From: Bacteroidales bacterium | GTDB lineage: Bacteria > Bacteroidota > Bacteroidia > Bacteroidales > UBA932 | Assembly (NCBI GenBank): GCA_017482565.1 | Contig: JAFUMO010000044.1 | Location: 1-36,162, forward strand | Direction of reading: 5' to 3' | Length of the DNA stretch: 36,162 nt | Position numbers and translations under genes: made by a program | The notes under the pieces: model-generated | The model's database searches: none | Told to the model about the DNA's origin: nothing | Seen by the model: the letters and a program-made list of their open reading frames with translations, nothing else | In this document: piece by piece, positions 8,624 through 35,396 of the stretch | How positions within the stretch are numbered: the stretch's first letter is position 1 | Layout: every line of letters starts with the position of its first letter

Positions 8624-9214
8624 ATGAAACCCGTAAAGGCCTTTATTGAGAAATTGACCCGCACACAAAAGGTTGTACTTTTAGTTATGGCCGGAGTTTT
8701 TGTGGGGAGCGGTTTCCTTTTCCTTTATATGCTCCGTGCAACAACATATCTGGGAGATGATTCTGCGGCATGCATAAACTGCCATATAATGTCTCCATAT
8801 TATGCTACCTGGAGCCATTCGTCACATTCCCGTAATGCCACCTGCAATGATTGTCATGTCCCTCACGAAAACTTTGTACGCAAATACGCATTCAAGGGGT
8901 TTGACGGGATCAAGCATGTAGGGGCATTCCTTACAGAGAGCGAGAGAAATGCGCCTGAGGCTGCAAGAATGAGTGCCCAGGTGATTATGGAAAACTGTAT
9001 CCGTTGCCATACGGAACTCAATACAGAACTTGTAAAGACAGGAAAGATAGACTTCATGAGGGCTGAGGCAGGCGAGGGAAAGGCTTGCTGGGACTGCCAC
9101 AGGGAGATTCCGCACGGTGGAAAGAACAGCCTCTCATCAACTCCTGGGGCAATTGTCCCTTATCCCGAATCTCCTGTCCCTGAATGGCTTCAGAAAATAA
9201 TCAATAATGACTGA
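8624..9214 (+). CDS. nrfH: NrfH, tetraheme quinol dehydrogenase of nitrite reductase
   Basis: A 196-residue membrane-anchored c-type cytochrome that passes electrons from menaquinol to NrfA in the periplasm. One N-terminal helix (about 17-37) anchors it. Four heme motifs follow: CINCH (50-54), CNDCH (74-78), CIRCH (125-129) and CWDCH (155-159), the set expected for the NapC/NirT-type NrfH. A start at 8570 is possible but falls on the promoter's -33 box, so ATG 8624 (MKPVKAFIEK) is preferred; it leaves a leader of about 20 bases. The end overlaps the NrfA frame by eight bases, indicating coupled translation. Confidence 0.95.
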   Translation: MKPVKAFIEKLTRTQKVVLLVMAGVFVGSGFLFLYMLRATTYLGDDSAACINCHIMSPYYATWSHSSHSRNATCNDCHVPHENFVRKYAFKGFDGIKHVGAFLTESERNAPEAARMSAQVIMENCIRCHTELNTELVKTGKIDFMRAEAGEGKACWDCHREIPHGGKNSLSSTPGAIVPYPESPVPEWLQKIINND

Positions 9215-10724
9215 CAATATGAGCGAGAAAAAATTGAAATCATGGCAGAGTTGGCTGCTGTTCGGCGGATCCATGGCAGCTGTATTCGTTTTGGGCCTTA
9301 TGGTATCCTCTCTGATGGAACGCAGGGCTGAGGTGGCCAGCATATTCAATAACCGCAAGAATCCTATGGAAGGGATTGAATCCAGGAATCCTCTCTACAA
9401 GAGTGATTTTCCGCGTGAATACCAGACCTGGAAAGCCACAGAAGAGACAGGATTCCGTTCAAAATATATGTCCAGCAACAATGATGATGTTCTGGAAGAG
9501 CGCCCCAATATGGTAATCCTGTGGGCCGGATATGCCTTCTCGTGGGACTACAACGCACCCCGCGGACATATGCACGCCATTGAGGACATGAGGGAGATTC
9601 TCCGCACAGGCGCCCCTGCAGAACTGGAATCAGGCTCAAACCAGCCGGGAACCTGCTGGACCTGCAAGAGTCCTGATGTACCACGCCTGATGGATTCCCT
9701 TGGAGTTGCGGAATTCTACAAGGCCAACTGGGCAAAATGGGGTTCTGAGGTGATGAATCCTATCGGCTGTGCAGATTGCCATGACAGCAAGACAATGGAC
9801 CTTGCCATCAGCCGTCCCGCACTTGTTGAAGCATATGAGAGAAGGGGACTGGACATTAAGGATGCCACACAGAACGAGCTGCGTTCATTGGTATGCGCAC
9901 AATGCCATGTGGAGTACTATTTCCAGGATTTCCCAAATACACCGGAAAAGGACCAGTATCTCACATTCCCTCATGATTACGGATACACCCTTGAGGATGC
10001 GGAGCGCTACTTTGATGAAAGGAACTACTACGATTATATCCACGCACTCAGCCGTACCCCTATCCTTAAGGCTCAGCATCCCGGTTATGAGATTGCAATG
10101 CAGGGTATCCACGGACAGCGCGGTGTATCCTGTGCAGACTGCCACATGCCTTATACAGCTGACGGAGGCGTGAAGTTCAGCGACCACCAGATACAGAGCC
10201 CTCTTGCAAAGATGGACCGCACCTGCCTTGTATGCCACAGGGAGAGCGAAGAGGTTCTGAGACAAAATGTATACGAGAGACAGGACAAATGCAACGAAGT
10301 GCGCAACCGTCTGGAGGCTGAACTTGCAAAAGCACACATAGAGGCCAAATTTGCATGGGACAATGGTGCTACAGAGGCTGAAATGAAGGATGTGCTGCAG
10401 TTCATACGCAAAGGACAATGGAGATGGGACTATGCAGTTGCCTCACACGGTGCATCATTCCACGCTCCACAGGAGGTTGTACGCATAATGTCAAGCGGCC
10501 TGGACTACACAATGCAGGCGCGTCTTGAAATTGCAAAGATACTTGCCAGACATGGCTATACCGGGGATATCCCTATGCCTGACATATCTACCAGGGACAA
10601 GGCTGCCGCATACTGTGGCATAGACATGAAGAAACGCCATGAAGACAAGGAAAAGTTCATGAATGAGATAGTTCCCCAGTGGATATCACAGGCAATGGAA
10701 ACAGGCAAACTTCTTGAGGACTGA
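9207..10724 (+). CDS. nrfA: Ammonia-forming cytochrome c nitrite reductase
   Basis: A 505-residue pentaheme enzyme reducing nitrite to ammonium with six electrons in the periplasm. The active-site heme uses the special CWTCK motif (150-154), followed by four CxxCH motifs: CADCH (188-192), CAQCH (230-234), CADCH (309-313) and CLVCH (340-344). A hydrophobic N-terminal segment (about 15-35) serves as signal or anchor. HVEYYF after the third heme and the histidines of GIHGQRGVSCADCHMPY fit the catalytic and ligand positions of the family. ATG 9207 overlaps nrfH; ATG 9219 (MSEKKLK), four bases after the nrfH stop, is an equally good start. Located second in the nrfHA-resB-ccsA operon. Confidence 0.96.
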   Translation: MTDNMSEKKLKSWQSWLLFGGSMAAVFVLGLMVSSLMERRAEVASIFNNRKNPMEGIESRNPLYKSDFPREYQTWKATEETGFRSKYMSSNNDDVLEERPNMVILWAGYAFSWDYNAPRGHMHAIEDMREILRTGAPAELESGSNQPGTCWTCKSPDVPRLMDSLGVAEFYKANWAKWGSEVMNPIGCADCHDSKTMDLAISRPALVEAYERRGLDIKDATQNELRSLVCAQCHVEYYFQDFPNTPEKDQYLTFPHDYGYTLEDAERYFDERNYYDYIHALSRTPILKAQHPGYEIAMQGIHGQRGVSCADCHMPYTADGGVKFSDHQIQSPLAKMDRTCLVCHRESEEVLRQNVYERQDKCNEVRNRLEAELAKAHIEAKFAWDNGATEAEMKDVLQFIRKGQWRWDYAVASHGASFHAPQEVVRIMSSGLDYTMQARLEIAKILARHGYTGDIPMPDISTRDKAAAYCGIDMKKRHEDKEKFMNEIVPQWISQAMETGKLLED

Positions 10725-10726
10725 TT

Positions 10727-11902
10727 ATGTGGAAAAAACCATGGAGATATAGGGAAGGCTTCCTCATTGGAGGAGGCCTTCTTGCAATAGGGACAATATT
10801 GCAGTGTACTACAGGCGCTGTAGAATGGGAGCTGTTTGCATGGCCGGTAAACCTCATTGTATTGTTATTGTTCATGCTTGCAATTGCCATAATATACGCC
10901 ATGCACAAAAAGGTATATGCTTTAGGGTGGATGATGCAGTACCATGCGGCAATCCCCGCCCTAATTTATGCGATGGCCCTTACAATTGTGATGGGACTTA
11001 CAGTACAGACATCAGATGGTGGAATCCCGTGGCTGTCACAGATGCTCTCTTTCTGGCCGTTCGTACTCATATATACATGGATGACCCTGATTGCAGGACT
11101 TGTAACCATCAGGCGGGCTGCAAACTTTAAAATGAAGGAGATTCCTTTTCTGCTGAACCATCTTGGAGTATTCATGGCAATAACGTTTGCCACATTGGGC
11201 TATGCAGATATGCATAAGCTGAAGATGACGGTAAAGACCGGGACTCCTGAATGGCGTGCCACTGATGACAATAATGCAATCCACGAACCCGGGCTTGCCA
11301 TTGAACTGCACAAGTTCATTCTGGAAGAGTACCCCCCAAAAGTTGTACTGGTAGATAATGAAACCGGAAAAGTTGTCCACAGCAAGGACAATGAAGGATG
11401 GGATATAGAGATTCTCAGTGAACTCCACGATGCTGCCCCTGTGAATTCAGAAGACGGACAGAGATATGAGCACTGGCACTCCCCCGGTTCCACCTGTGCA
11501 ATGGAGATCAGGGCCAGAAGGGGAAATATTGAGAAGAAAGGCTGGATTTCGTCGGGAAGCTTTGTATTCCCACATACTCCTATGAACCTGGATGAAAGAT
11601 ACTCACTGGCCATGCCTGAGAGGGAGCCCAAGAGGTACGCTTCAGAAATAACAGTATATACACAGAAAGGTGAGACAATAAAGGGTACAGTTGAGGTAAA
11701 CAAGCCCCTTAAAGTGGATGGATGGAAAATATACCAATACAGCTATGACAGCCGGCTTGGGAAATGGAGCACCACCAGCATATTTGAACTTGTAAAGGAC
11801 CCTTGGCTTCCATTTGTATATGCAGGCATATATATGATGCTTGCCGGGGCTCTGTGCCTGTTGTTTGTAATGGCCCCAAAACCTATAAAGACAGAAAATT
11901 GA
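10727..11902 (+). CDS. resB: ResB-like cytochrome c synthesis protein
   Basis: A 391-residue inner-membrane protein of System II cytochrome c maturation, thought to present apocytochromes and, with CcsA, move and attach heme. Hydrophobic segments lie at about 11-28, 41-59, 71-90, 108-127 and 143-160, then a large periplasmic part (about 165-360), with a last helix near 365-385. The LLNHLGVFMA segment carries a conserved-type histidine (H145). The late motif YTQKGETIKGTVEVNKPLKV then WKIYQYSYD is characteristic of ResB. It begins two bases after nrfA and ends one base before ccsA, so it almost certainly serves the Nrf hemes, including the unusual CxxCK site. Confidence 0.88.
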   Translation: MWKKPWRYREGFLIGGGLLAIGTILQCTTGAVEWELFAWPVNLIVLLLFMLAIAIIYAMHKKVYALGWMMQYHAAIPALIYAMALTIVMGLTVQTSDGGIPWLSQMLSFWPFVLIYTWMTLIAGLVTIRRAANFKMKEIPFLLNHLGVFMAITFATLGYADMHKLKMTVKTGTPEWRATDDNNAIHEPGLAIELHKFILEEYPPKVVLVDNETGKVVHSKDNEGWDIEILSELHDAAPVNSEDGQRYEHWHSPGSTCAMEIRARRGNIEKKGWISSGSFVFPHTPMNLDERYSLAMPEREPKRYASEITVYTQKGETIKGTVEVNKPLKVDGWKIYQYSYDSRLGKWSTTSIFELVKDPWLPFVYAGIYMMLAGALCLLFVMAPKPIKTEN

Positions 11903-11903
11903 G

Positions 11904-12689
11904 ATGAACTGGACCCATTTTATATATTTTGCCCTGCCGGCCTGCCTGTGCTGGGCAGCAGGAGCCTATTACGCCTGGAAAGGGAAGAGAATACATGCAT
12001 TTGCACTAACCGCATCAGGCCTGGCAATCTTTTTCTCCTATATAGCAGGAATGTGGATATCACTGGAGCGTCCACCTCTGAGGACAATGGGTGAAACAAG
12101 GCTGTGGTACTCATTCTTCCTCCCTGTAGCCGGAATAATTGTATACTGGAGATGGCGCTACAAATGGATACTCTCCTTCAGCACGCTCATGGCATTTGTA
12201 TTCACATGCGTAAACCTTTTCAAGCCGGAGATCCACTCCAAGTCTCTTATGCCTGCCCTCCAGAGCCCCTGGTTCGCCCCTCATGTGATAGTATATATGT
12301 TCTCATATGCACTCCTTGGAGCGGCAACCGTAATGGCACTATATATTCTGCTGAAAAAAGGGACAGCAACAGAGAAGGAGACCAATCTCACCGACAATCT
12401 TGTGTATACAGGCACAGCATTCCTCACTTTTGGAATGCTTTTTGGGGCATTATGGGCAAAAGAGGCATGGGGACACTACTGGGCCTGGGACCCTAAAGAG
12501 ACCTGGGCGGCAATAACCTGGCTGTGCTACATCATATACCTCCATTACAGGAAAGCCAGCCCACATGGGATACGGACTTCATGTATCCTCCTTATCTGGG
12601 CATTCATATGCCTGCAGATATGCTGGTGGGGAATCAATTACCTCCCTTCAGCCAAAGGGAACAGCATCCATACCTACAATGTGAAATAG
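11904..12689 (+). CDS. ccsA: CcsA-type cytochrome c heme lyase subunit
   Basis: A 261-residue polytopic membrane protein, the heme-handling half of System II. The WWD signature WGHYWAWDPKETW (189-201), which holds heme at the outer face, is intact, and histidines in APHVIVY (H127) and near the C-terminal helices are available as axial ligands. About eight transmembrane segments are seen. It starts one base after the resB stop and ends five bases before a convergent gene, leaving almost no room for a separate terminator. In some Bacteroidota ResB and CcsA are fused; here they are separate. Confidence 0.9.
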   Translation: MNWTHFIYFALPACLCWAAGAYYAWKGKRIHAFALTASGLAIFFSYIAGMWISLERPPLRTMGETRLWYSFFLPVAGIIVYWRWRYKWILSFSTLMAFVFTCVNLFKPEIHSKSLMPALQSPWFAPHVIVYMFSYALLGAATVMALYILLKKGTATEKETNLTDNLVYTGTAFLTFGMLFGALWAKEAWGHYWAWDPKETWAAITWLCYIIYLHYRKASPHGIRTSCILLIWAFICLQICWWGINYLPSAKGNSIHTYNVK

Positions 12690-24220: not shown

Positions 24221-24266
24221 AAATGAAAAAGAGACTGGCAACATAAAGCCAGTCTCTTTTTCATTT
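24221..24266 (+). terminator. Strong intrinsic terminator after the permease
   Basis: A perfect 19-bp stem (24221-24239 with 24248-24266) with an 8-base loop, built around GAGACTGGC/GCCAGTCTC with A/T-rich bases at the foot, giving a T run on the plus strand. Confidence 0.93.
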
Positions 24267-24429
24267 GCAGGAGAAAATGTACCTGCGGAGGACTCCGGTC
24301 GCTTTGCTTCCTCCGGCCCCTCCCATTGTCATCTGCGTCATCGCACAGCGATAACTTACTGCCAACGGGCCCCTCCCCCTACCCGTGTCCGGGGGTGGAC
24401 ACGCCTCCGCAAATACATTTTCTCCTGCA
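24266..24429. repeat. 164-bp element with 26-bp inverted ends
   Basis: Ends 24266-24291 and 24404-24429 are inverted copies with two mismatches. The interior is markedly GC-rich compared with its flanks and contains further hairpins: ATCGC-ACA-GCGAT (24340-24352) and GTGTCC-6-GGACAC (24385-24402), and a direct repeat GGCCCCTCCC (24315-24324 and 24368-24377). No convincing reading frame fits. It could be a structured RNA, a non-autonomous mobile element or a dispersed intergenic repeat. Confidence 0.75.
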
Positions 24430-24440
24430 ATCAAACAAAA

Positions 24441-24465
24441 GAAGGTGACCTTCAGGGCCACCTTC
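24441..24465 (-). terminator. Terminator of the five-gene protease/TonB operon
   Basis: On the minus strand GAAGGTGGCC pairs with GGTCACCTTC (one G-U pair) around a short loop and is followed by TTTTGTTTGA. It lies 21 bases past the last gene's stop. Confidence 0.8.
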
Positions 24466-24485: not shown

Positions 24486-26039
24486 TTAGAATGTAATTCC
24501 CACCGAGAAATCTGTGTACATCCTCTTGCTGAAATCATCCCCTTTTGGAGAATAGTACTGGCACCTGGCCTGCACGAACATTGAGGTCTTAGGCCCCACA
24601 AGGGTTGACCAGCATAGCTCTGCTCCCAGCTTCATATAATCTGAAGACATGTACCTTATGTCGTTCACGTACATTTTTGCAACTGTATCGGAAGTCCCAT
24701 AAGAACCTGAATAGCTGTACTCTCCCTCAAGGTTGGCATTATAGCCCACATTAACCCCTGCCAGCAGGGAACTCTTGCTTCCAACAGTAAAGTTCTTCTT
24801 GCCATAAACGTTAAGAAGGAGGTTCTCAGCCTTCAGGGTAGAAACAGGGAGGAGATACTCATCAAATTTGTCTGAATACTCAATATCCAGGCCTGCCCTC
24901 CAGCTGTAGGCATCACCCTCTTTTGCAAAAACTTCATAGTTTAGGGCCGCACTCTTCAATGAATACTTGCTTCTCACATATTTTGCAAGGGTAATCCACT
25001 CAGAAACATCAAATGATGTATCCAGCTCCTGTATATACTCAATGCCGTCTGTTGCCTTATCTGTATATGAAACTGTTGCCTTATGCATATACTCCTGGCC
25101 ATCCTTAACAAGCTGAAGCGATCCTTTCCAGAAATTCTGCACTGTAGAACCCATGGCCTGTTTCTTGGTAGGGGTCTGGAACGCATCCTCAACTTTATAT
25201 GAATAAGCCACGTCTGCAAGGGCAGAGAACTCGCCTCCACCGTTATAGCCGTACTGGAGCCCGGCTCCAAGCCTGTGCCCCTTATAGAAGAAAATGCCTA
25301 TACCTGAAGTTCCAGACACCACGCCTGCAGAATAGTTGCCCAAGCCCTTCATTATATAAACAGGATAGTTCACCTCTGTATCGCTCCTGTTATTGGTTGC
25401 CCTCTCAAAGAGGTACTCATAATTGAGGCTCAAGCCAAGGCTGCTGCCCTCAGAGAGTTCAAACACAAATGAAGGGGAAGCGGAAATTGTAAGGTAATAG
25501 GTAACCGAACGCGGGTCATTCTGCTTTGCACCTGTTCTGGTGGTATAGCGGAGGTCTCCTCCAGCTGTCACAAAATCCCACAGCTGCGGGAAGGCAACCT
25601 TTACCCCAAGATCATACTCCTGCTTCCTCCATTTGCTTGGAGTTGCATCAGCAACATAATAAGGCATATCCCTGAAAGGATCATAAATGTTTGTAAGGAA
25701 GCTGCTTTTCTTTTCAGTTATATTCCCGTAATTGAAAGTACCCCATAGATAGGTATCCCCCACCCTTGTTGTACCCTCTGTGCCAAATTTTATCACGCTC
25801 TTATCCTTACCCTCCTGTGTCATCTTGAAATCACCTCCGGTGTTGCTGTAACCAAGCCCCACAATACTATAGTTGCTTAACGGTGTAACTGCCATACCGG
25901 CACTGTTTGAAGAGTTGAACCAGAGTGCCTTTGACCGGGTAAGCTCAATCTGGGCCTGACGTACTGCCTCATCCTGTGCAAAAAGGGATGATGAAGCAAA
26001 CAGGCCAACCAATGCAAGAATTGAATATTTTATTTTCAT
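24486..26039 (-). CDS. DUF6850 outer-membrane beta-barrel protein
   Basis: A 517-residue protein with a signal peptide (MKIKYSILALVGLFASSSLF, AQ cleavage) and a mature part of alternating-hydrophobic strands ending in a C-terminal aromatic strand (FSKRMYTDFSVGITF), typical of an outer-membrane barrel. The DNA start is set by a Shine-Dalgarno-like GGAGGA at 26047-26052 seven bases before ATG 26039; an upstream ATG at 26054 would overlap that site. I assign DUF6850, a family seen next to TonB receptors and DUF4876 proteins. It is the last gene of the operon, 18 bases after DUF4876. Its job may be as a barrel partner of the receptor or as a separate pore; neither is shown. Confidence 0.75.
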   Translation of the reverse strand: MKIKYSILALVGLFASSSLFAQDEAVRQAQIELTRSKALWFNSSNSAGMAVTPLSNYSIVGLGYSNTGGDFKMTQEGKDKSVIKFGTEGTTRVGDTYLWGTFNYGNITEKKSSFLTNIYDPFRDMPYYVADATPSKWRKQEYDLGVKVAFPQLWDFVTAGGDLRYTTRTGAKQNDPRSVTYYLTISASPSFVFELSEGSSLGLSLNYEYLFERATNNRSDTEVNYPVYIMKGLGNYSAGVVSGTSGIGIFFYKGHRLGAGLQYGYNGGGEFSALADVAYSYKVEDAFQTPTKKQAMGSTVQNFWKGSLQLVKDGQEYMHKATVSYTDKATDGIEYIQELDTSFDVSEWITLAKYVRSKYSLKSAALNYEVFAKEGDAYSWRAGLDIEYSDKFDEYLLPVSTLKAENLLLNVYGKKNFTVGSKSSLLAGVNVGYNANLEGEYSYSGSYGTSDTVAKMYVNDIRYMSSDYMKLGAELCWSTLVGPKTSMFVQARCQYYSPKGDDFSKRMYTDFSVGITF

Positions 26040-26057
26040 CTCAAAATCCTCCATAAT

Positions 26058-27275
26058 TTAGTTAGCCCAAGTGTTCCATGCAGGGACTCCGGCACCATTC
26101 CTCCTCACCTCTGCCTTGTCATTCACCTGGAAATCCTCAGAACTGTTGTTAGTATCCATATAAACTATCCTGCCGTTGGGAAGAGTCTCCTTTATCTTCC
26201 TGCTCACACTCTTGCCTACATAGGTTTCACCCACAAAAGTTGCACCCGCATCCAAAGTTGCAGGAACCCTCTTGAGATTCATCTTCTCTGCATTGTTGAT
26301 GAGCTCAACAGCATCCAGTATCCATGCCATAGGGATATCCTTGGCCTTTGTAGACTGTCCTACAGGGGTAACAAACGTATTTGGATTAATCTCATCCTCA
26401 GGGAAGAACATCGCATATGCCCCACCAAACACGGTAACCAGCCACTGCTGCAATGAAGCGGACTTGCTTGGATATGCTGCAAGTGTCATATTGATTGCAG
26501 GGTTGTCCTTTATAATTGAAGTGGTCTTGAGATAGGTCTCAAATTCTGCTCCCGACAAATCAACAGGCGATAAAGGGTTCAGGGCCTCCCTCTGGTGGTT
26601 GTCACCCATCTGCGCTATGATGATGGACTCACCCGGCTGCAAGGGATAATCTGTACCGCTTCCAGGAACCTGCCATATTGCCTGGAAATAAACATAATCC
26701 TCCTGGTTTTCCCTGTCCCATGTAGGGATGTTTGCAGTGGCGGTAAGAGGATACATGTTTCCCATACAGAGGCCGTCGAGGTAAATCAGTTTGTTTGAGT
26801 TGTTGTAGATTTCATAAAACTGGTCCCTGAAATAGGAAGCATTCTTTGGGGTACGGCTTCCGCAATAGTATATCTCCTTGAACAGAAGGTTGCCGGATCT
26901 GGCAGGAGTCATGCTCAGGGTGTGGTTCTCATTCCCCTCATAAAGGTTCACATTCACCAGGTTGCCATTGAAGTTATATGTAAACATATCATCTGATGAC
27001 TCACCCTGTACGGTAACTGTATACACTCCAGGAATGATATCACCCACAGTAATTGCTGCTCCTGCATCAACCTCCTTTACAATCTCAATGTTCTCCGCAT
27101 AGTTGTTGAACTTTACGGTATATTTGTCGGGAGAAGGAACATCATCCCCCATATCAAGGTTAATCTTTATCCCTACGGAAATAGGCTTGATTGCCTCCAC
27201 ATCAGCAACCTCCCTGAACTGCTCGCAGGAGATGATGCCAAAGGCAACCGCCATTATAACAAATATCTTTTTCAT
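26058..27275 (-). CDS. DUF4876 surface lipoprotein
   Basis: A 405-residue lipoprotein (MKKIFVIMAVAFGIISC, lipidated C17). The first 120 residues look like a beta-sandwich (YTVKFNNYAENIEIVKEVDA, then ITVGDIIPGVYTVTVQG). The rest matches DUF4876: ARSGNLLFKEIYYCGSRTPK, DQFYEIYNNSNKLIYLDGL and YPLQPGESIIIAQMGDNHQ, which recall lamin-tail/LTD-like modules. A GGAGGA (27282-27288) lies well placed for the ATG. It sits 14 bases after the TonB-receptor gene, in the position where a SusD-like or other surface ligand-binding lipoprotein is found in nutrient systems, so a ligand-capturing role is a fair guess. Confidence 0.82.
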   Translation of the reverse strand: MKKIFVIMAVAFGIISCEQFREVADVEAIKPISVGIKINLDMGDDVPSPDKYTVKFNNYAENIEIVKEVDAGAAITVGDIIPGVYTVTVQGESSDDMFTYNFNGNLVNVNLYEGNENHTLSMTPARSGNLLFKEIYYCGSRTPKNASYFRDQFYEIYNNSNKLIYLDGLCMGNMYPLTATANIPTWDRENQEDYVYFQAIWQVPGSGTDYPLQPGESIIIAQMGDNHQREALNPLSPVDLSGAEFETYLKTTSIIKDNPAINMTLAAYPSKSASLQQWLVTVFGGAYAMFFPEDEINPNTFVTPVGQSTKAKDIPMAWILDAVELINNAEKMNLKRVPATLDAGATFVGETYVGKSVSRKIKETLPNGRIVYMDTNNSSEDFQVNDKAEVRRNGAGVPAWNTWAN

Positions 27276-27289
27276 AAATGGTCCTCCTG

Positions 27290-30160
27290 TTATCTGATGT
27301 TAATTTTAAGGTCAAATCCAAAGAATGTAGGCATTCCCAGCTCTGTAAATGAACCCGGGTACATCTTGCTCTCATACAGCGGCCTGCTGTTGAAGATGTT
27401 GTTGGCAAAGAACGAAGCGGTAAGGAAATCACCCAGCTCCTTGGATACGTTTATGTTGAAGATTACATACGGATTATAGGTCTCCGCCATGAACCTTCTC
27501 TCATTAGGAACATTAAACAGGTATGCAAACTCTGGATCATCTTTCTTTGAAGGGTCAAAATCATAAACAAGACCATCTATGTAAGAGATATATTTCTCAA
27601 ACATGGTATCATTGCCATACTCTGTCCACCTCTTTGTCTTCCAGTTTGCCTGTGCGGTAAGTGTAACAACAAAACCTATCTTAGGGATATTGTGTGTAAG
27701 ACGGAATGTGGTGTTGAACATCTCATGGAACGAACGCTCCACCCCTTTCTCATACACACCAATATGTCTCTCCAGCTTGTTTCCGTTGGAATTTGTGCTG
27801 TAAGAATAATTGTTGTTCACCTTCTTGTCCTGCATCCAGGCACCATTGATGTTTATCTGTGTGCGGATAGCCTCAATCCTGCCCAGATTCAGCTCATACT
27901 CTATACCTTTGCCGGTAGTCTGGAGGGTATTGAGCGGCTTTGACCAGGATGCCCATACATTGTGCTCCTCAGCAAGTTCCAGAAGAGGAATCTGTCCTGC
28001 CCTCTCCTCATAAATCTTGTATACCTTGTAAGGTACCAGATTGAAGCAGCTGAGATCCCTGCCCATTGTATACCCGTTCTTGAGCCTTTCATGGTAAGCG
28101 GTAACCGAAGCGTTCATCTTTCCTGAATTGAACTTGAAGTCAAAGCCAATCTCTGTCTTGGTGTTCTTTGCAATCTTCAAATCTGGATTCTTTGTATTGA
28201 ATACCCTTGTAGTACCCACAAACAGCTGCTCATTCTCAGGAACCTTCTCATCTCCAAGATTATTGAAGTTCACATACTCAAAATAAGCCTCCTGCGGATA
28301 GAGGTACAAAGAGGTAGGGGCCTTTGCCAGGATACCCCATCCACCCCTGAGGAAGAAGCGGCCCGGAACCACCTCAAATGAACCGTTGAAACGCGGTGTA
28401 AGTGCATTCTTGCCGTTGATATGGTCATAACGGAGACCACCGGTAAGCTTAAGTTCATGCTCCCCGAAGTTCTTTGAGAATACATCCTCAACATAGAAGC
28501 TCAGCTGGTTGATGAAAGGGATGTCCTTGAAGGCCCTCGGACGCCAGCCGGCATCACCGGATGAACTCATAGGCGGGAAGGCCAGATCATAAACCGTACC
28601 CTTGCCCACATTACCGTCGGTCTTGAAATCCACACCAAGGAGGATATTATTGTAGCCCGTCTCCCATCTCTTGCTGAAATTTGCCTTCAGGGAAGCCTGG
28701 AAGTTGATCTCATCACCATAGATGTCATACCTTGAGAAGTAGCTGTACGGAAGATATGTACCATAGTACCCCTTCTCAGCGGCAGATACATTTGTAATCT
28801 CATTGCCATCCTTGTCAAATACCTGCTGCCCAGGCCTGTTGGAAATGACAGTGCCGTCAATTGTAGACATAAGATAAGGTGCAAAGGCATTTGAGAGCTG
28901 GCTCTGGCGGTATGAGTGCTTGTCGTCGTATGAGAAGGAAACAGTATAGTTTATCCTTTTCAGCCAGCCGGCATCAGGTGTCATGAGGGTACCGTTGCTG
29001 TTGAATCTCAGGCCAACCTCCTTGGCACCGAGGGCAAGTTTGGAACGCTCATCATCTGGATTTTGCTCACGGGTATCCTTCCTGAACTTGAGGTCGAGGG
29101 AGGTGTTTGTAGTGAGGTTCTCTCCAAAGGTTTTGGTCCAGAGTCCCCTGAGGGTAAACCTCTGGTAATACTGATGGGCCATCTCCTGCTGGCGGGCATC
29201 ATAGGCATAATCGCCGCTGATTGAGAGGGCTCCGCCCTTCTTGCCAAGCTGCAGGCCGCGTGAAACTGCAGCCGAATATGTATAAGGATTGATATGCAGC
29301 TTCACACGCAAAGGCTCTTTACCGGCCTTTGTCTTTATGATTACCGCACCTGAAGTCATATCACCATACTGTGCAGACGGGATACCACGGATAACCTCCA
29401 CTGACTCAATATTATCTGTAGATACTCCCCTCAAGTCATAACCACCCGCAGGGCTTGAGCCCACACCTACATTATCATTAGCACCGGAAACGGTTGCAGA
29501 CAAAAGCTGCATGTTGGCATTGTTGGAAAGTGCGGCACCGTCCATGATGATTGCCGTACCCAAACTGTTCATGTTGGCATGAGCATCAGTGGATGCAGTA
29601 TTGCTGCTCCTTGAATTGCTTGTAGGGGCAATTGTCCTTATATAGATATTGTTGGAAACAGCCATGTTTGAATTTAGGATACTGGCTCCCGGGAGGAGCT
29701 GCATCACATCCTTCACAGTATTTGCCTGAAGGTGGTCCATAGCCTGCCTTGAAATGTTTGAGGCAGTTGCATCGCCCGCCTTGCTCTGCTCTGCAAGAAC
29801 AGTCACCTCATCCAGACGGAAGTTGGTCTCCTTCATCACAAAATTGAACACATACTCCTTGCCGGCCGAAAGGTTAACAAGTGTATCTATTGTTTCCATA
29901 CCTACAAACTGGATGGAAATGCCGGTCTTTCCCGGCTCAACATTCCTGAACTGCCAGGTACCGTCAAGTTCTGTTGTGGAATAGACATTCTGGGGCAAAA
30001 GGTGTACCGTAGCAAATCCTACAGGTTCCGCTGCCTCCCCCTCCATTGTTACAGTTCCCCTGATCTGTGCATACCTGCCGGCATCCTTGCCCTGTTGGGC
30101 AAATAGACCTGAAGGCAGCAGAATCAAAAGAGCTGCAAAAATTGAAAAAATTCTACGCAT
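27290..30160 (-). CDS. TonB-dependent outer-membrane receptor
   Basis: A 956-residue receptor importing a ligand across the outer membrane using TonB energy. After the signal peptide (MRRIFSIFAALLILLPSGLF, AQ) there is a carboxypeptidase-regulatory-like domain (about 30-113, RGTVTMEGEAAEPVGFATVH), a plug (about 115-280, with ASNISRQAMDHLQANTVKDV and IESVEVIRGIPSAQYGDMTS) and a 22-stranded-size barrel ending FGFDLKINIR. It lacks the longer SusC length and no SusD gene is adjacent, so it is closer to siderophore/peptide-type receptors. Its position between two proteases and a surface lipoprotein points to peptides, or a cofactor released from protein, as ligand; that is inference. Confidence 0.93.
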   Translation of the reverse strand: MRRIFSIFAALLILLPSGLFAQQGKDAGRYAQIRGTVTMEGEAAEPVGFATVHLLPQNVYSTTELDGTWQFRNVEPGKTGISIQFVGMETIDTLVNLSAGKEYVFNFVMKETNFRLDEVTVLAEQSKAGDATASNISRQAMDHLQANTVKDVMQLLPGASILNSNMAVSNNIYIRTIAPTSNSRSSNTASTDAHANMNSLGTAIIMDGAALSNNANMQLLSATVSGANDNVGVGSSPAGGYDLRGVSTDNIESVEVIRGIPSAQYGDMTSGAVIIKTKAGKEPLRVKLHINPYTYSAAVSRGLQLGKKGGALSISGDYAYDARQQEMAHQYYQRFTLRGLWTKTFGENLTTNTSLDLKFRKDTREQNPDDERSKLALGAKEVGLRFNSNGTLMTPDAGWLKRINYTVSFSYDDKHSYRQSQLSNAFAPYLMSTIDGTVISNRPGQQVFDKDGNEITNVSAAEKGYYGTYLPYSYFSRYDIYGDEINFQASLKANFSKRWETGYNNILLGVDFKTDGNVGKGTVYDLAFPPMSSSGDAGWRPRAFKDIPFINQLSFYVEDVFSKNFGEHELKLTGGLRYDHINGKNALTPRFNGSFEVVPGRFFLRGGWGILAKAPTSLYLYPQEAYFEYVNFNNLGDEKVPENEQLFVGTTRVFNTKNPDLKIAKNTKTEIGFDFKFNSGKMNASVTAYHERLKNGYTMGRDLSCFNLVPYKVYKIYEERAGQIPLLELAEEHNVWASWSKPLNTLQTTGKGIEYELNLGRIEAIRTQININGAWMQDKKVNNNYSYSTNSNGNKLERHIGVYEKGVERSFHEMFNTTFRLTHNIPKIGFVVTLTAQANWKTKRWTEYGNDTMFEKYISYIDGLVYDFDPSKKDDPEFAYLFNVPNERRFMAETYNPYVIFNINVSKELGDFLTASFFANNIFNSRPLYESKMYPGSFTELGMPTFFGFDLKINIR

Positions 30161-30181
30161 CTTCTCTAATATTAAATCAGT

Positions 30182-32383
30182 TTATTTAAGTCTGTTGATG
30201 GTCTTAAGGAGCTCAGCCTTTGCCGCCTCATCCTTCTCAACCTTATATAGTTCTTCGCATTGTGCAATCACATCACCCTTGACGCTTGAGAACTCATACC
30301 AGCCCAATGCCTCAATTGCTATGAGCCTGAGCTCCTGGTTATCAGATGTCTTTATCATGTGTACGATTGGTGCCACTGCAGCAGGCTCGCATTTGTTGCG
30401 TCTTCCACGTGCAAAGCTCCTCTGCTCCTTGAGTGACATTGTCCCGTCCATAATTGATGCAATATCCTTCTGGAATGAATTGCCGGAGTTTCTGATATAT
30501 CCAAGGTTCCTTTCAAAAATTTCTTTGCCTTCCCAGTAAGGCCTGGCCTGGTTCTGTCTGTTGAACTCTGCCATAAGGGCAGACATGTCATAGCCGCCCA
30601 AATTGCCTTTAACCTGGAAAAGCACCCTGGCGGAGGTCATTGGATCCATGTATGCTGCAACAACAGCAGGAAGAAGCTCAGCCGAGAAGTTCTTGCCTGC
30701 ATACATTGCTGCAAGACGCTGGGTAAGCTCATAATCATCTCCGAGCCCCATGATAATGGCTTTAGGGAAATTGGCATCCGCAATCTTCCTGTTTGTATTG
30801 AAAGACTCCAGCCTGAGCACCTTGCTGCTGCTGTTCTTCTGAATATCCAGAAGCTCAGCTGAAGAGATGGCATTATTGTTATGCAGCATCTTTATTGCCA
30901 GAGCTTTATAGTCACATGCAAGTTCATCTTCCACAGGTGAATAGAGTACCTCCCTCCAGAACTTCACATCATTCTTTCTGGAAGCAATGATTTCATCTAT
31001 ATTGAAACCTTTCTTCCCAGCGAATTCCTGCGGGATGTTCTGGGCCACAAACCCGAACGTAGGGTCACCGAACAGGTGAGACTCCAAGGTCATCTGCCCC
31101 TTGGCCCAGTTGCCGGCACATATACCCCAGTTGAAGAGGCCAATAAGCTCCGTTGTCCAGGTATCCTGAAGGGTATTTACAGTATTTCCCTTTACAACAA
31201 TTGTATTTCCGGGGTTAAAGATATAATGAGCCGCAATGTAATCATCATTATTGAATGCACCATTGTAGCAGGCATCCAGGATAACCACCTTTGCACCGGA
31301 CTCATACCCGGCAAGGTCTGATATCACAATATCCATTGAAGCAGCATGCAGGCTGTCCTCATAAACTCTCTTTGGATCATTATAATCCTCAAGCCACGAA
31401 GCAGGGACATCATAATTCTTCATGAAGCGCTCCCTTGCGGCCTCCTTGTCCTTTGCAGAATCCATCTTTGAACGGAAATAGTTCCTTGCAAGGTCAATCC
31501 AGCCCTTGGGATCCGAAACAATAGGGGCACCGTTAAGATACTGGGTATCCTCCGCGCCATGATGATGGAGCATTGCAAGATCCAGCTCCTTGTCTGCCAC
31601 CGCAGCCATGAGGCGGGTCTTCACGTATCTGTCGAAGGTAAAATCAATATACTCCAGGTGGGCATCATTGCCGTTGAGGAACTGGAAATGCTCTGCAAAT
31701 GCAACCGCCTCATCCACACGGGCATTCATACTCTCAGAGTTGTATCCGTGCCCTGCAAAATGGAGCAGCTTCCCCATTGACTTCTGCTCCTGCTTTGCAG
31801 CAGCCGCCTTCTTCAGGAAATCTGCAACAAGCCTGTACTTGTCTTCACCTTCAGGTGCCTTTATCCTTGAAGAATAGATATCACAGCCTATCTCCTGTGC
31901 GCCATCTGCAAGAAGGGAATAATAGAAGTAAAGCTTCCTGTCCTCATCCTGCTTGATGAACTTGAACTTAAGGTCAAAATCATCATAAAAGCGGTCTGAA
32001 GGGACAGAAGAATCCTTCATATCCTGCTTCTGGTTCATCTTGAAGGCAGTGGTAAAATGCTGTGCATCCCTCACCATTGGAACAGGAATATCCCCAATGA
32101 ACACAGCACCCTCAAGGTTATTGTTCTTGTACATGTTGTAAAGGCATGCCCTGATTGAATCCGGGTTGAACCACTTGTCAACCACAAGGACACCCTTCCT
32201 GAAGCTGTTCCCGACAGATTCAACGTAAGAATCCACCTCCTGAGGAATCTTGGCATAAGTCTTTTCATCCACCACAACGGCAACTGTAGTGCCGGCAAAC
32301 TTGGCAGACTTTGCAGAAACGCTTCCGGCAGCAAGCACTGTAAAAGCCAGCGCCGCCAAAACTGTTCTAAACTGTAATCTCAT
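30182..32383 (-). CDS. C25/gingipain-like cysteine peptidase
   Basis: A 733-residue secreted protein of clan CD, the caspase/gingipain fold. Signal peptide MRLQFRTVLAALAFTVLAAG, cleaved after SVSA. The catalytic dyad is visible: H275-G in AMLHHHGAEDTQYLNG and C372 in VVILDACYNGAFNNDDYIAA. SVPSDRFYDDFD and CDIYSSRI match the landmarks that precede the active site in C25 peptidases, and IVVKGNTVNTLQDTW follows. The C-terminal third (about 460-733) is helical and HEAT-repeat-like (SSAELLDIQKNSSS, AIEALGWYEFSS). No propeptide or type IX sorting domain is obvious, so it may stay in the periplasm or on the surface by other means. It follows the S9 gene by 18 bases and precedes the receptor gene by 21. 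Confidence 0.82.
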   Translation of the reverse strand: MRLQFRTVLAALAFTVLAAGSVSAKSAKFAGTTVAVVVDEKTYAKIPQEVDSYVESVGNSFRKGVLVVDKWFNPDSIRACLYNMYKNNNLEGAVFIGDIPVPMVRDAQHFTTAFKMNQKQDMKDSSVPSDRFYDDFDLKFKFIKQDEDRKLYFYYSLLADGAQEIGCDIYSSRIKAPEGEDKYRLVADFLKKAAAAKQEQKSMGKLLHFAGHGYNSESMNARVDEAVAFAEHFQFLNGNDAHLEYIDFTFDRYVKTRLMAAVADKELDLAMLHHHGAEDTQYLNGAPIVSDPKGWIDLARNYFRSKMDSAKDKEAARERFMKNYDVPASWLEDYNDPKRVYEDSLHAASMDIVISDLAGYESGAKVVILDACYNGAFNNDDYIAAHYIFNPGNTIVVKGNTVNTLQDTWTTELIGLFNWGICAGNWAKGQMTLESHLFGDPTFGFVAQNIPQEFAGKKGFNIDEIIASRKNDVKFWREVLYSPVEDELACDYKALAIKMLHNNNAISSAELLDIQKNSSSKVLRLESFNTNRKIADANFPKAIIMGLGDDYELTQRLAAMYAGKNFSAELLPAVVAAYMDPMTSARVLFQVKGNLGGYDMSALMAEFNRQNQARPYWEGKEIFERNLGYIRNSGNSFQKDIASIMDGTMSLKEQRSFARGRRNKCEPAAVAPIVHMIKTSDNQELRLIAIEALGWYEFSSVKGDVIAQCEELYKVEKDEAAKAELLKTINRLK

Positions 32384-32401
32384 ATCTGTAACATTAAATA
32401 A

Positions 32402-35356
32402 TTATTCTTCAACAAGTTCCAGACCCATATCAACCCCCTTGTGAGTAGCCGGAAGGCCGTATTTCATCCACACAGGCATAGGGGCACCCTTAAGGAAATG
32501 GTCCATGAACTGGGAGAGCCTGATGGTGTAGTCAAGGGCATTCACCCTCTTGCTTATATTATGGCTCTCATCATTATACTGCAGCATCCACACCTGCTTG
32601 CCCAACCTCCTCAAGGCAGTAAAATACTCAATGCCCTGGTACCAAGGAACCGCCTCATCGGCATCATTGTGCATGATAAGCAGAGGAGTGTTCACCTTGT
32701 GGGCGAAGAAAAGTGGTGAATTCTCCAGATAAAGCTCAAGGCCCCCCTCATCCCATAAAGTCTTGCCTATACGGCTCTGGGTATGCTCATACTGGAAATG
32801 CCTTACCACACCGCTTCCCCAGCGGATACCGCCGTAGGCACTGGTCATATTGGCAACAGGGGCGCCGGAACCGGCACACTTGAACATATCTGTCTGGGTA
32901 ACCAGGTAAGCCACCTGATAGCCGCCCCAGCTCTGTCCCTGGATTGCAACATTATCCTTATCAACCCATGGATTCCTGCAAAGCTCCTCCACACCTGAAA
33001 CTATGCAGTTGTATGCGCTCTTGCCCGGATGTCCCACAGTATAGTGGATATCAGGCATGAATACAAGGTAACCGTTGCTCACAAAATAGGTGATGTTAAT
33101 TGTGGAGCGGCTCACTGCAGGCTTCCTGTAAGAATGCTTGTACTGGCTTGAGGTCTCATAGAAATAAACCACCATAGGATACTTCCTTGAGGGGTCAAAA
33201 TCCTCAGGCTTGTAGAGCAGGCCCTCAAGTTCGCGGCCGTCATGCGCCTTCCAATAAACAGATTCGCAAGTACCCCAATTATAATCCGCCTGCTGCGGGT
33301 TGGAATTGGTAAGCTTGCGCGAAGTCTTGAACAGGTTATTTGTAACCCAAAGGTTTGTGCTCTCCACAAAATTCCCCTTGGTATAGGTTATCACATTTGC
33401 ATCCTTGGCCTTATTCAGATAACCGAGGGTAAAATCAGGCTCCATGACAAGTTCCCTCATGGGCATCAGCCTGCCCCTGCGGTTCTCCCTCATATAATAG
33501 CCTGTACCCTTGCTCTTGTTGTCAAAGGCTGTAAAATAGACATTGTCCCTCTTCCCTATAGGTTCCTTCTTTATGCCCGGAGTACCGTCGGGAAGCTGGA
33601 GGGCATCCCACCTCATCATCTTGAAGGTATAGCCCTTCTCCCTGCCAAGCCCCTGGGTAAGCATCACAGGGGCACGCTGTGCAAGAGGATCCACCTCCCA
33701 CACATCATACTTGTCATACACATAGAAAGTTGCCTCATCTGCACTCCAGCCCCCATTGCCATAGGCAGGAGCCATCTGCGGCTTGTCGTGAGATTCCTTC
33801 CACAAAGGGAAATGGATGCCGCTGGTGATGCACACAGGCTCACCGGCAGTATGGATCCCTTCTTCCATTGCCCTGTTTACACCGCGCAGGTCCAAAGAAT
33901 AGAACTGCTTGTGCCCGGGATTGTACCATACAAGGAAATTGCCCTCCGGAGAAGCAGAGATGTTTGAAGCATAAATCTCCCGGGCAACCATCCTTGAAGA
34001 GCCGTCCTTGAGGGAAATCAGGTAAAGGTCACAAACCGGATTTGCATCCCACTGGCTTCGCTTGTTATAGCGCTCACTGCTGAAAGAATAGGCATACTCA
34101 GCTCCCCACTCTGCCGGAATGGTAATGTTGGGATACTCAGGCTGTGCCAGACGCACCAGCTCCTGTGAGGCAGCCTTGCGGGTATTTGTATCCAGCGCAA
34201 CCCAGCTCAGATAGCTCCTCTTCAAGTGCATATTCTTCAGGTTCAGCTGATGCGTAGAAATGAAATCATCATTATAGTGCCACACATCTACCTTGGCCTG
34301 CTCCTGTTTACTTGTAGTATCCTTCTTTGGCTGAACCTTGGTAATGCCAAAGAAAAGCCTGTCACCTGCCTTATTGAAATTAAGGGCACGGTTGCGGGTA
34401 AGCACCATACCCTCAGGGATTCCCTTTAAGCTATTGTCTGCCACCCTATGAGCCTGTGCCCCCTGCCCATACAGGTCAAAAGTATATATCTCCACATTCT
34501 CATCCAGCGTTAGGGTAGTGTCAGTATTGGCATAAAAGGCAATGAACTTCTCATTAGCTGAAAGATAAGGCTTCATGATATCCCCCTTCTTGCCTGTCCT
34601 TAGGATAGAATCCCTGCCTCCCGTTGCAGGGTTGTAGGAATAGAGCTCCTTATATTCCTTTCCCGATGAATCCTCCCCTTTTGCAATGCAAAGGAGACGG
34701 TCCCCATTCTTGGTAAAGGAAATTACATCTACCCCCTTAAGGGTATCACAAACTGCATTCCTCTCCAAATCATACACCAAAGTGATTACCTCAGTCTTGG
34801 GCTTATTTTTTGATTTTGATGATTTGTCGGGAACAGTATCATTATTGGAAGGAAGAGGCTGCTTGTGCTCCACCTTGAATGCAATGAAACTTCCCCCCTC
34901 GCGCGGCACCTCCACACTCTTGAGGGCAGGGAATTTTGAAATCCTGCCGGTAGCCAGCTCCAGAATTCCCAGGGTATCCTTAGGAAGCTTGTCCCCTTTC
35001 AGCTTCTTCTGCTTGGCCTCCTTCTGCTGTGCATGTGCAGGCCTGATAGTAAGCACCAGATGTTTCCCCTGCGGAGAGAACTTGGTTCGAGCCCCCCTTG
35101 GAACAGTGACAGTTGCATTGGTTTTCAGGTTCATGACTGTAACCTTGCCATCATTCTCCTCCTTATTGGAATAAAAGGAGATCCACCTGCCGTCATCCGT
35201 AATTGCATACCCTCCAAGAGTCTCCCACTTATCATAAACTGAGTGATCCAATGCCGGTTTTGAAGAAGGTGCGGCAACAACCTTATCCTGTGAAAAAGCC
35301 ATTGTACTGCAAAACATTGCGGCCACAGAAAAGACAAAATAAACTAATCTTATCAT
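32402..35356 (-). CDS. S9-family prolyl-oligopeptidase-like protease
   Basis: A 984-residue secreted protease, first gene of the operon. Signal peptide MIRLVYFVFSVAAMFCSTMA. Residues to about 690 form a large beta-propeller-like region (WKESHDKPQMAPAYGNGGWS and similar blades); the C-terminal 250 residues are the alpha/beta hydrolase with nucleophile elbow GQSWGGYQVAYLV (Ser near 809), acid in MHNDADEAVPWYQG and base in NDESHNISKR. Such enzymes cut short peptides, often after proline or as dipeptidyl peptidases. An in-frame TTG at 35395 would add 13 residues, but the TATTTTTG -7 box (35365-35372) lies between it and ATG 35356, so the ATG is the start. Confidence 0.92.
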   Translation of the reverse strand: MIRLVYFVFSVAAMFCSTMAFSQDKVVAAPSSKPALDHSVYDKWETLGGYAITDDGRWISFYSNKEENDGKVTVMNLKTNATVTVPRGARTKFSPQGKHLVLTIRPAHAQQKEAKQKKLKGDKLPKDTLGILELATGRISKFPALKSVEVPREGGSFIAFKVEHKQPLPSNNDTVPDKSSKSKNKPKTEVITLVYDLERNAVCDTLKGVDVISFTKNGDRLLCIAKGEDSSGKEYKELYSYNPATGGRDSILRTGKKGDIMKPYLSANEKFIAFYANTDTTLTLDENVEIYTFDLYGQGAQAHRVADNSLKGIPEGMVLTRNRALNFNKAGDRLFFGITKVQPKKDTTSKQEQAKVDVWHYNDDFISTHQLNLKNMHLKRSYLSWVALDTNTRKAASQELVRLAQPEYPNITIPAEWGAEYAYSFSSERYNKRSQWDANPVCDLYLISLKDGSSRMVAREIYASNISASPEGNFLVWYNPGHKQFYSLDLRGVNRAMEEGIHTAGEPVCITSGIHFPLWKESHDKPQMAPAYGNGGWSADEATFYVYDKYDVWEVDPLAQRAPVMLTQGLGREKGYTFKMMRWDALQLPDGTPGIKKEPIGKRDNVYFTAFDNKSKGTGYYMRENRRGRLMPMRELVMEPDFTLGYLNKAKDANVITYTKGNFVESTNLWVTNNLFKTSRKLTNSNPQQADYNWGTCESVYWKAHDGRELEGLLYKPEDFDPSRKYPMVVYFYETSSQYKHSYRKPAVSRSTINITYFVSNGYLVFMPDIHYTVGHPGKSAYNCIVSGVEELCRNPWVDKDNVAIQGQSWGGYQVAYLVTQTDMFKCAGSGAPVANMTSAYGGIRWGSGVVRHFQYEHTQSRIGKTLWDEGGLELYLENSPLFFAHKVNTPLLIMHNDADEAVPWYQGIEYFTALRRLGKQVWMLQYNDESHNISKRVNALDYTIRLSQFMDHFLKGAPMPVWMKYGLPATHKGVDMGLELVEE

Positions 35357-35364
35357 AACGGCGG

Positions 35365-35396
35365 CAAAAATACCTAAACTTTCACATCCCCGCAAG
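35365..35396 (-). promoter_or_regulatory. Promoter of the protease/TonB operon
   Basis: Minus strand: CTTG (35396-35393), 20 bases, TATTTTTG (35372-35365). The ATG follows eight bases after the box, so the leader is at most a few bases. Confidence 0.5.

Follow-up and report, generated by a model that had tools for sequence, protein, structure and literature searches.

A recurrent module of TonB receptor, DUF4876 lipoprotein and DUF6850 barrel with varying peptidases in Bacteroidota, possibly serving iron-linked protein import

Why should two peptidases stand in one row of genes with a TonB-dependent receptor? The window considered here, the whole 36,162-nucleotide contig JAFUMO010000044.1 of a Bacteroidales bacterium (contig C33 of a 2.1-Mb genome in 70 contigs), raises this question. 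On its minus strand, from 35395 to 24486, five open reading frames (ORFs), all co-directional, encode in order an S9 peptidase, a gingipain-fold protease with a HEAT solenoid (C25-HEAT), a TonB receptor, a DUF4876 lipoprotein and a DUF6850 barrel. An earlier interpretation of the letters alone (hereafter the sequence-only reading) had described five such co-directional genes, which our ORF calls bear out, and had seen in them a system for scavenging peptides. The observation is confirmed; its interpretation is partly supported and is redirected here from peptide scavenging to iron-linked import of a protein or large peptide followed by its digestion, an explanation that we hold tentatively, at somewhat less than an even chance.

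Does this association of genes extend beyond the window? We write T for the TonB receptor, 4 for DUF4876, 6 for DUF6850 and C for C25-HEAT. In a phylum sample of 395 genomes, which includes the window's own and was not selected by C25-HEAT, DUF4876 is found in 37 genomes and DUF6850 scores over its cut-off in 37, with 35 in common (hypergeometric probability 3e-45, a figure that ignores kinship between genomes and thus overstates their independence). One of 14 control genomes matches, the same genome for both families. DUF4876 is present in G157 and G183 with no Pfam match for DUF6850; G224 and G341 have weak matches for DUF6850 over the cut-off without DUF4876, and ten more genomes have DUF6850 below the cut-off, also without DUF4876. 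Full-length C25-HEAT occurs in seven of the 395 genomes (the window's own included), all with both DUF4876 and DUF6850, a count that is possibly low, as scoring was limited to the top two candidates in each genome. A further 31 genomes, which were not counted, match C25-HEAT partially via its HEAT region, except for one short match elsewhere in G212. The sequence-only reading had suggested looking for the co-occurrence of these families in other genomes, and they are indeed not found mostly apart.

The order of the genes recurs as well. In 40 stretches fetched around DUF4876/DUF6850, from 32 genomes, T and 4 are adjacent and co-directional in 39, and 4 and 6 in 34. C25-HEAT is matched in 43 of the 149 genomes of a family sample (again including the window's own), and among twenty stretches fetched from it T-4-6 is consecutive in 17, with C25-HEAT directly before T in 16; further C copies follow, with up to five C in one array. 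A third set consists of 79 named loci retrieved with the C25-HEAT alignment, from the top 80 of 475 relatives, and hence selected by C. T-4-6 is contiguous in 58 of them, many contigs ending early, with median intergenic gaps of 7 to 27 bases; Proteiniphilum, Sunxiuqinia and Segatella maculosa with T-4-6-C are represented. Since so many other genomes repeat this order, the arrangement is more than chance. The T-4-6 module, whose three genes are also adjacent on one strand in the window, is real, and the TonB receptor, lipoprotein and proteases that the sequence-only reading had coupled form a recurrent unit.

The most distinctive protein of the operon is the 733-residue C25-HEAT protease. Its structure model predicts a gingipain-fold (C25) domain followed by a HEAT solenoid; the sequence-only reading had recognized a C25-like protease with an H275/C372 dyad, for which both the fold and the conservation hold, and had missed the solenoid. 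H275 and G276 are kept in 58 of 58 sequences and C372 in 57 of 58, and the His-Gly and Cys dyad is invariant in the 90 rows of alignment A2 (the window protein plus 89 out of 125 listed homologues) and in seven of seven in another comparison. The predicted catalytic-domain fold and this conserved dyad are those of C25 peptidases. No Pfam family scores above its cut-off in the window protein and PF01364 does not match it at E ≤ 1; PF01364 matches three of 31 alignment members (best 7.4e-07) and none of ten homologues at E ≤ 0.1, some of which overlap with the 31. A single-sequence search of the PDB gave nothing useful, the structure model being informative instead, and the A1 profile search gave no gingipain, with HEAT-type and designed repeat proteins among its matches. 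These results point to a putative protease family that joins the gingipain fold to a HEAT solenoid and mostly escapes the Pfam C25 model. It differs from the gingipains RgpB and Kgp (peptidase family C25) in its C-terminal HEAT solenoid, in an identity of 13–14%, in having no detected C-terminal domain of the type IX secretion system (T9SS) and in its place in an operon with a receptor. Since the protein has a signal peptide, with neither a lipobox nor a T9SS C-terminal domain detected, the surface location considered in the sequence-only reading is unlikely. A scan of viral_contigs for relatives found none.

Two observations concern the surroundings of C25-HEAT genes. In 12 of the 79 loci (L070, at 9444-9887, L076, L080, L082, L084, L086, L087, L091, L102, L106, L107 and L110) a small Cys/His-rich protein, with the motif GRYSC or GKYSC, then CDH, then a CC pair further on, is encoded 80–142 bases ahead of the leading C25-HEAT gene; for three that were examined, neither Pfam nor NCBIfam gives a match over its cut-off, and a metal role would be a guess. 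Stretch L067 (2368-16863, on the same contig as L033) has an S9 gene and then five tandem C25-HEAT genes with the receptor core absent from the stretch, and its genome holds a separate T-4-6-C-C-C-C locus, L050.

Is the S9 peptidase an equally constant partner? The protein has the S9 domain, its best counterpart in the PDB is the S9 family peptidase 8wt1 (2.8e-24), and the catalytic Ser, Asp and His already pointed out by the sequence-only reading are conserved in 19 of 19 aligned sequences. Its start is likelier to be ATG 35356 than TTG 35395, because the latter falls within the promoter. An S9 gene lies beside the module in 14 of the 79 named loci, co-directional and at the head of the operon, as in the window, in eight (two of which are probably one) and divergent in six; at least 4 kb of upstream sequence is available in 50 of the 79, many contigs being short. 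In some other loci it stands downstream or directly before the receptor. Loci L061 and L064, on one 91,946-base contig, show the same gene row in opposite orientation; they probably reflect a duplication in the assembly but enter the 79 as two. Given these numbers and its absence from locus L060, we rejected S9 as a fixed member of the operon, as which the sequence-only reading had treated it: some lineages have it as an accessory. In the S9 tree the genes that adjoin the module fall into two lineages, a sign of a functional tie and not of coincidence. The window's genome has a second S9 on contig C14, whose place in the tree is among the divergent ones; this long protein (G000:C14:2078-7185) is 45% identical to the window S9 and its gene is followed by an S9 frame with an internal TAG.

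Compared with the PDB, the receptor profile (A4) matches nine chains at E ≤ 1e-5, namely colicin I and siderophore receptors. As in SusCD and RagAB systems, the receptor gene adjoins a lipoprotein gene, but no SusD or RagB match was found by Pfam in the five window proteins and the receptor reaches 61.9 bits with the SusC/RagA model, below the cut-off of 368.25; a SusCD reading was put low. The DUF4876 protein has a solved homologue, 4q1z, named a putative lipoprotein (E 2.6e-88). For the DUF6850 protein a single-sequence PDB search yielded nothing useful and the structure model was again informative: with a pLDDT (predicted local distance difference test) of 92.0, it shows long strands that meander from residue 62 up to the Phe at the C-terminus and predicts an outer-membrane barrel, in line with the sequence-only reading. 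Its structural neighbours are porin and transporter barrels, from which we read no function since many unrelated barrels lie close together in the list.

What accompanies the core elsewhere in the phylum? Neighbours in the 40 stretches were identified by Pfam from one protein per cluster, and cytochrome c peroxidase (CCP) by family search at all eight places. The clusters comprise Ycf48-like propellers (17 of the 40 stretches), M16 peptidases, FecR and ABC ATPases (nine each), ECF sigma factors, CCP_MauG and an unnamed lipoprotein (eight each), DUF4857 (seven), and PepSY_TM and M28 (three each). The nine M16 genes, seven of them co-directional with the core, compare with at most 1.36 expected (at the domain level, from 233 matches in the 32 genomes). 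Two M16 proteins compared with the PDB gave as best match the M16 peptidase 9ldy, then PqqL and the FusC chains 6b03 and 6brs. Of the 49 CCP genes in 36 genomes, eight lie within 5 kb of the core, against 0.17 expected in a Poisson estimate that overstates independence, the genomes being related; the core coordinates used in this count leave out G428, and the stretches come from 32 of the 36 genomes (G170, G428, G486 and G532 left out). In L176 the order T-4-6-propeller-C-M16 brings C25-HEAT and M16 together in one array. The core stands beside varying processing enzymes (M16, M28, C25-HEAT, S9 or CCP), as reported for the Fus clusters of Proteobacteria.

Other neighbours are noted here as such. 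ABC ATPase, permease, DUF4857 and/or PepSY_TM genes stand beside T-4-6 in L156, L157, L158, L177, L181, L185, L186 and L188, and genes of these types also, by eye, in L121; they resemble the iron-induced BT3625-33 locus discussed below. The unnamed lipoprotein, of about 285 residues, follows or flanks the core in L164-L167, L174 and L192-L194, with no Pfam family in three examined, and a similar-looking lipoprotein was seen by eye after C25-HEAT in L121 (12094-12960) and L126 (12273-13148).

Published expression data link similar loci to iron. According to PMC10434189, low iron raises genes PG1019-22 of Porphyromonas gingivalis (DUF4876, TonB receptor and hypothetical proteins) by a factor of 20.8 to 214.5. 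In Bacteroides thetaiotaomicron the rise is 3.5- to 7.4-fold for BT1933-39 (HEAT repeat protein, DUF4876, TonB receptor and hypothetical proteins) and about 37- to 128-fold for BT3625-33, which has two DUF4876 genes; a figure legend gives PIN17_RS07775-90 of Prevotella intermedia as the counterpart locus. Judging by annotated genes, PG1019-22 and BT1933-39 look like the same locus as that of the window. PG_1019 and PG_1020 are further listed with hmuY among the changed genes of a PG_0686 mutant (PMC10101095), and in PMC10470040 the genes of P. gingivalis that respond strongly to hemin include one for DUF4876, listed next to hmuY. The window operon shares with the iron-stimulon loci the TonB receptor, DUF4876 and, in BT1933-39, a HEAT repeat protein, and differs in placing an S9 gene first; in the parts of PMC10434189 available, the HEAT protein is not described as a C25 protease and no S9 partner is mentioned. 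As these loci are reportedly induced by iron starvation, and as FecR/ECF, PepSY_TM, CCP and M16 are among the genes that adjoin the core in the phylum, iron-linked uptake looks likelier than the generic peptide scavenging of the sequence-only reading. Nor are such loci without precedent, though that reading could name none, since 'protease-associated import systems' are described for Proteobacteria in PMC6793856, alongside what looks like the same locus in print as iron-regulated.

In those proteobacterial Fus clusters, a FusA-type receptor is accompanied by the M16 protease FusC or by other proteases; FusC is missing in multiple clusters, which have a CCP instead, and the expression of PqqL and FusC depends on iron (PMC6793856; further papers on Fus are PMC6071955 and PMC7593965). 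The likeness is that the gene of a TonB-dependent transporter adjoins that of a periplasmic protease or a CCP: the Bacteroidota core has the same kinds of partner, and in the window two proteases, C25-HEAT and S9, are co-directional beside the transporter. The difference is that the window has C25-HEAT and S9, a DUF4876 lipoprotein and a DUF6850 barrel; a FusC-type M16, present in some other T-4-6 loci, is not among its five genes by Pfam. The window operon would work in the manner of such a system, but as there is no M16 and the receptor did not prove FusA-like, we did not file it as Fus.

We infer the following course of events for the window operon. Iron starvation, as published for loci with the same annotated genes, would induce it. 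The DUF4876 protein, probably a lid on the TonB receptor, would capture at the cell surface a protein or peptide that carries iron or haem, and the receptor would pull this cargo into the periplasm with TonB energy. There, C25-HEAT and S9, whose catalytic residues are conserved and whose folds are recognizable, would cut the cargo and free the metal or haem together with peptides, the HEAT solenoid perhaps holding the substrate. The DUF6850 barrel, the constant partner of receptor and lipoprotein, may provide a second channel or an exit route. A bolder version, possible but doubtful in our view, is that Bacteroidota have independently assembled their own counterpart of Fus, in which the T-4-6 core would import whole iron or haem proteins and a swappable set of enzymes (tandem C25-HEAT, S9, M16 including the FusC/PqqL type, M28, or a di-haem peroxidase) would extract the iron.

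Several points weigh against iron-linked import and digestion and its Fus-like version. Iron regulation proves neither an iron cargo nor a protein cargo, the fold change of BT1933-39 is modest, and its HEAT protein can be equated with C25-HEAT by annotation only. Neither a Fur-like box nor a shared dyad was found in the upstream regions of relatives that we compared. M16 and CCP adjoin the core in other lineages and not in the window operon; the PqqL/FusC kinship concerns two of the nine M16 proteins, five others being of a different type by eye. The 22-kb locus of the closest C25-HEAT relative found (L060, 74–76% identical) has no S9, and the profile search did not place the receptor in the FusA family. 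Finally, PqqL and YddB do not support growth in iron-limited LB, according to PMC6793856, so that the Escherichia coli Fus analogy is itself not fully proven.

How do other explanations compare? The receptor could import a small ligand, haem or a siderophore, that the proteases release from proteins of the host or from carriers, as gingipains and HmuY do. The colicin I and siderophore receptors that are its nearest solved relatives by profile, the gingipain fold of C25-HEAT, the PepSY_TM neighbours in three of 40 stretches and the appearance of DUF4876 and receptor genes with hmuY in published lists of iron- or hemin-responsive genes all point in this direction. However, an enzyme with a signal peptide and no detected T9SS domain or lipobox should meet its substrate only after import, and Pfam shows no resemblance of the DUF4876 protein to HmuY; we consider this explanation unlikely, without being negligible. 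The operon could also serve the general scavenging of proteins and peptides for carbon and nitrogen put forward by the sequence-only reading, with which two or more proteases per operon and the tandem C25-HEAT copies would agree. The published iron-starvation induction, the haem and redox enzymes that alternate as partners of the core and the lack of a SusD or RagB match make it improbable.

Two further proposals centre on the enzymes. With S9 as the peptidase, the locus might take up and cleave a ribosomal or non-ribosomal peptide, such as a metallophore or a lasso-like peptide: lasso isopeptidases of the Atxe2 family are found beside TonB receptors, the window S9 weakly matches the Atxe2 model and FecR/ECF genes neighbour other loci. 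Yet this match, at 79.3 bits, is far under the cut-off of 400 and equalled by DPP5 at 78.2, and S9 is beside the module in only 14 of the 79 named loci, so that such a role seems very improbable. That the C25 enzyme processes exported proteins in a maturation or surface-assembly locus, as PorU does or Rgp acting on fimbriae, would suit its fold. The constant partner is an import receptor, however, iron induction is reported and no pilin or T9SS gene was found by Pfam among the five window genes; we regard this proposal as hardly credible.

Iron-linked import and digestion, if correct, would offer a concrete hypothesis for the iron-stimulon loci of Bacteroidota whose function PMC10434189, as far as its accessible text goes, leaves open. 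We found no published proposal of an import-and-digest function for them in a search that mostly did not extend to subscription journals. The hypothesis predicts that gut Bacteroidota obtain iron from whole proteins, and the fixed core with alternating enzymes makes it testable in B. thetaiotaomicron.

The layout of the window operon is given in Table 1. The first three intergenic gaps are 18, 21 and 14 bases, as the sequence-only reading had counted. Its last gap of 18 bases applies from the in-frame Met 26039, which is the likelier start of DUF6850, and shrinks to 3 bases if the ORF is opened at the first ATG, 26054. N-terminal signal peptides, which that reading had attributed to all five proteins, were likewise seen by eye in each.

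Table 1. Features of the five-gene operon and of its putative signals in the window.
Feature	Coordinates	Strand	Basis
S9 (prolyl oligopeptidase family) serine peptidase, signal peptide	32402..35356	-	Pfam S9 6.1e-25
C25-HEAT protease	30182..32383	-	Predicted gingipain-fold domain ~29-462 with His275/Cys372; HEAT solenoid ~463-733
TonB-dependent receptor	27290..30160	-	CarbopepD_reg_2 and Plug domains (Pfam)
DUF4876 lipoprotein	26058..27275	-	Pfam 2.2e-43; lipobox IISC by eye
DUF6850 outer-membrane beta-barrel (predicted)	24486..26039	-	Pfam DUF6850; structure model
Promoter TTG-N20-TATTTTTG	35365..35395	-	Window sequence; boxes common to L060, L061, L062 and L065
Intrinsic terminator	24441..24465	-	Terminator scan

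The promoter that the sequence-only reading had placed at 35365-35396 recurs in relatives: the same boxes with the same spacing occur in four of the eight inspected, the alignment comprising five of 76 upstream regions chosen by eye from nine. TAnnTTTG is the -7 box of Bacteroidota promoters. It occurs in 47 of the 76 upstream regions, against 12.9 in mononucleotide shuffles, and the full TTTG-N17-23-TAnnTTTG arrangement in ten, against 0.6. The terminator proposed at 24441-24465 was also returned by the terminator scan. In the operon region, sigma-70-like matches (24 against 21.0 in shuffled sequence) and terminator-like matches (14 against 12.2) are no commoner than in shuffles, and single matches therefore carry little weight.

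Other elements of the window lie outside the operon. A 39-nt inverted repeat (24253-24442), 82% complementary with arms 112 bases apart and present as a single copy in the genome, is flanked by the operon terminator on one side and by a perfect 19-nt hairpin (24221-24266) on the other. A haem-demanding cluster of cytochrome c552 nitrite reductase, ResB and cytochrome c assembly genes (9207-12686) is found about 12 kb from the operon, and a transposase gene (DDE_Tnp_1_2, DUF772) occupies positions 141-1529, near the contig end.

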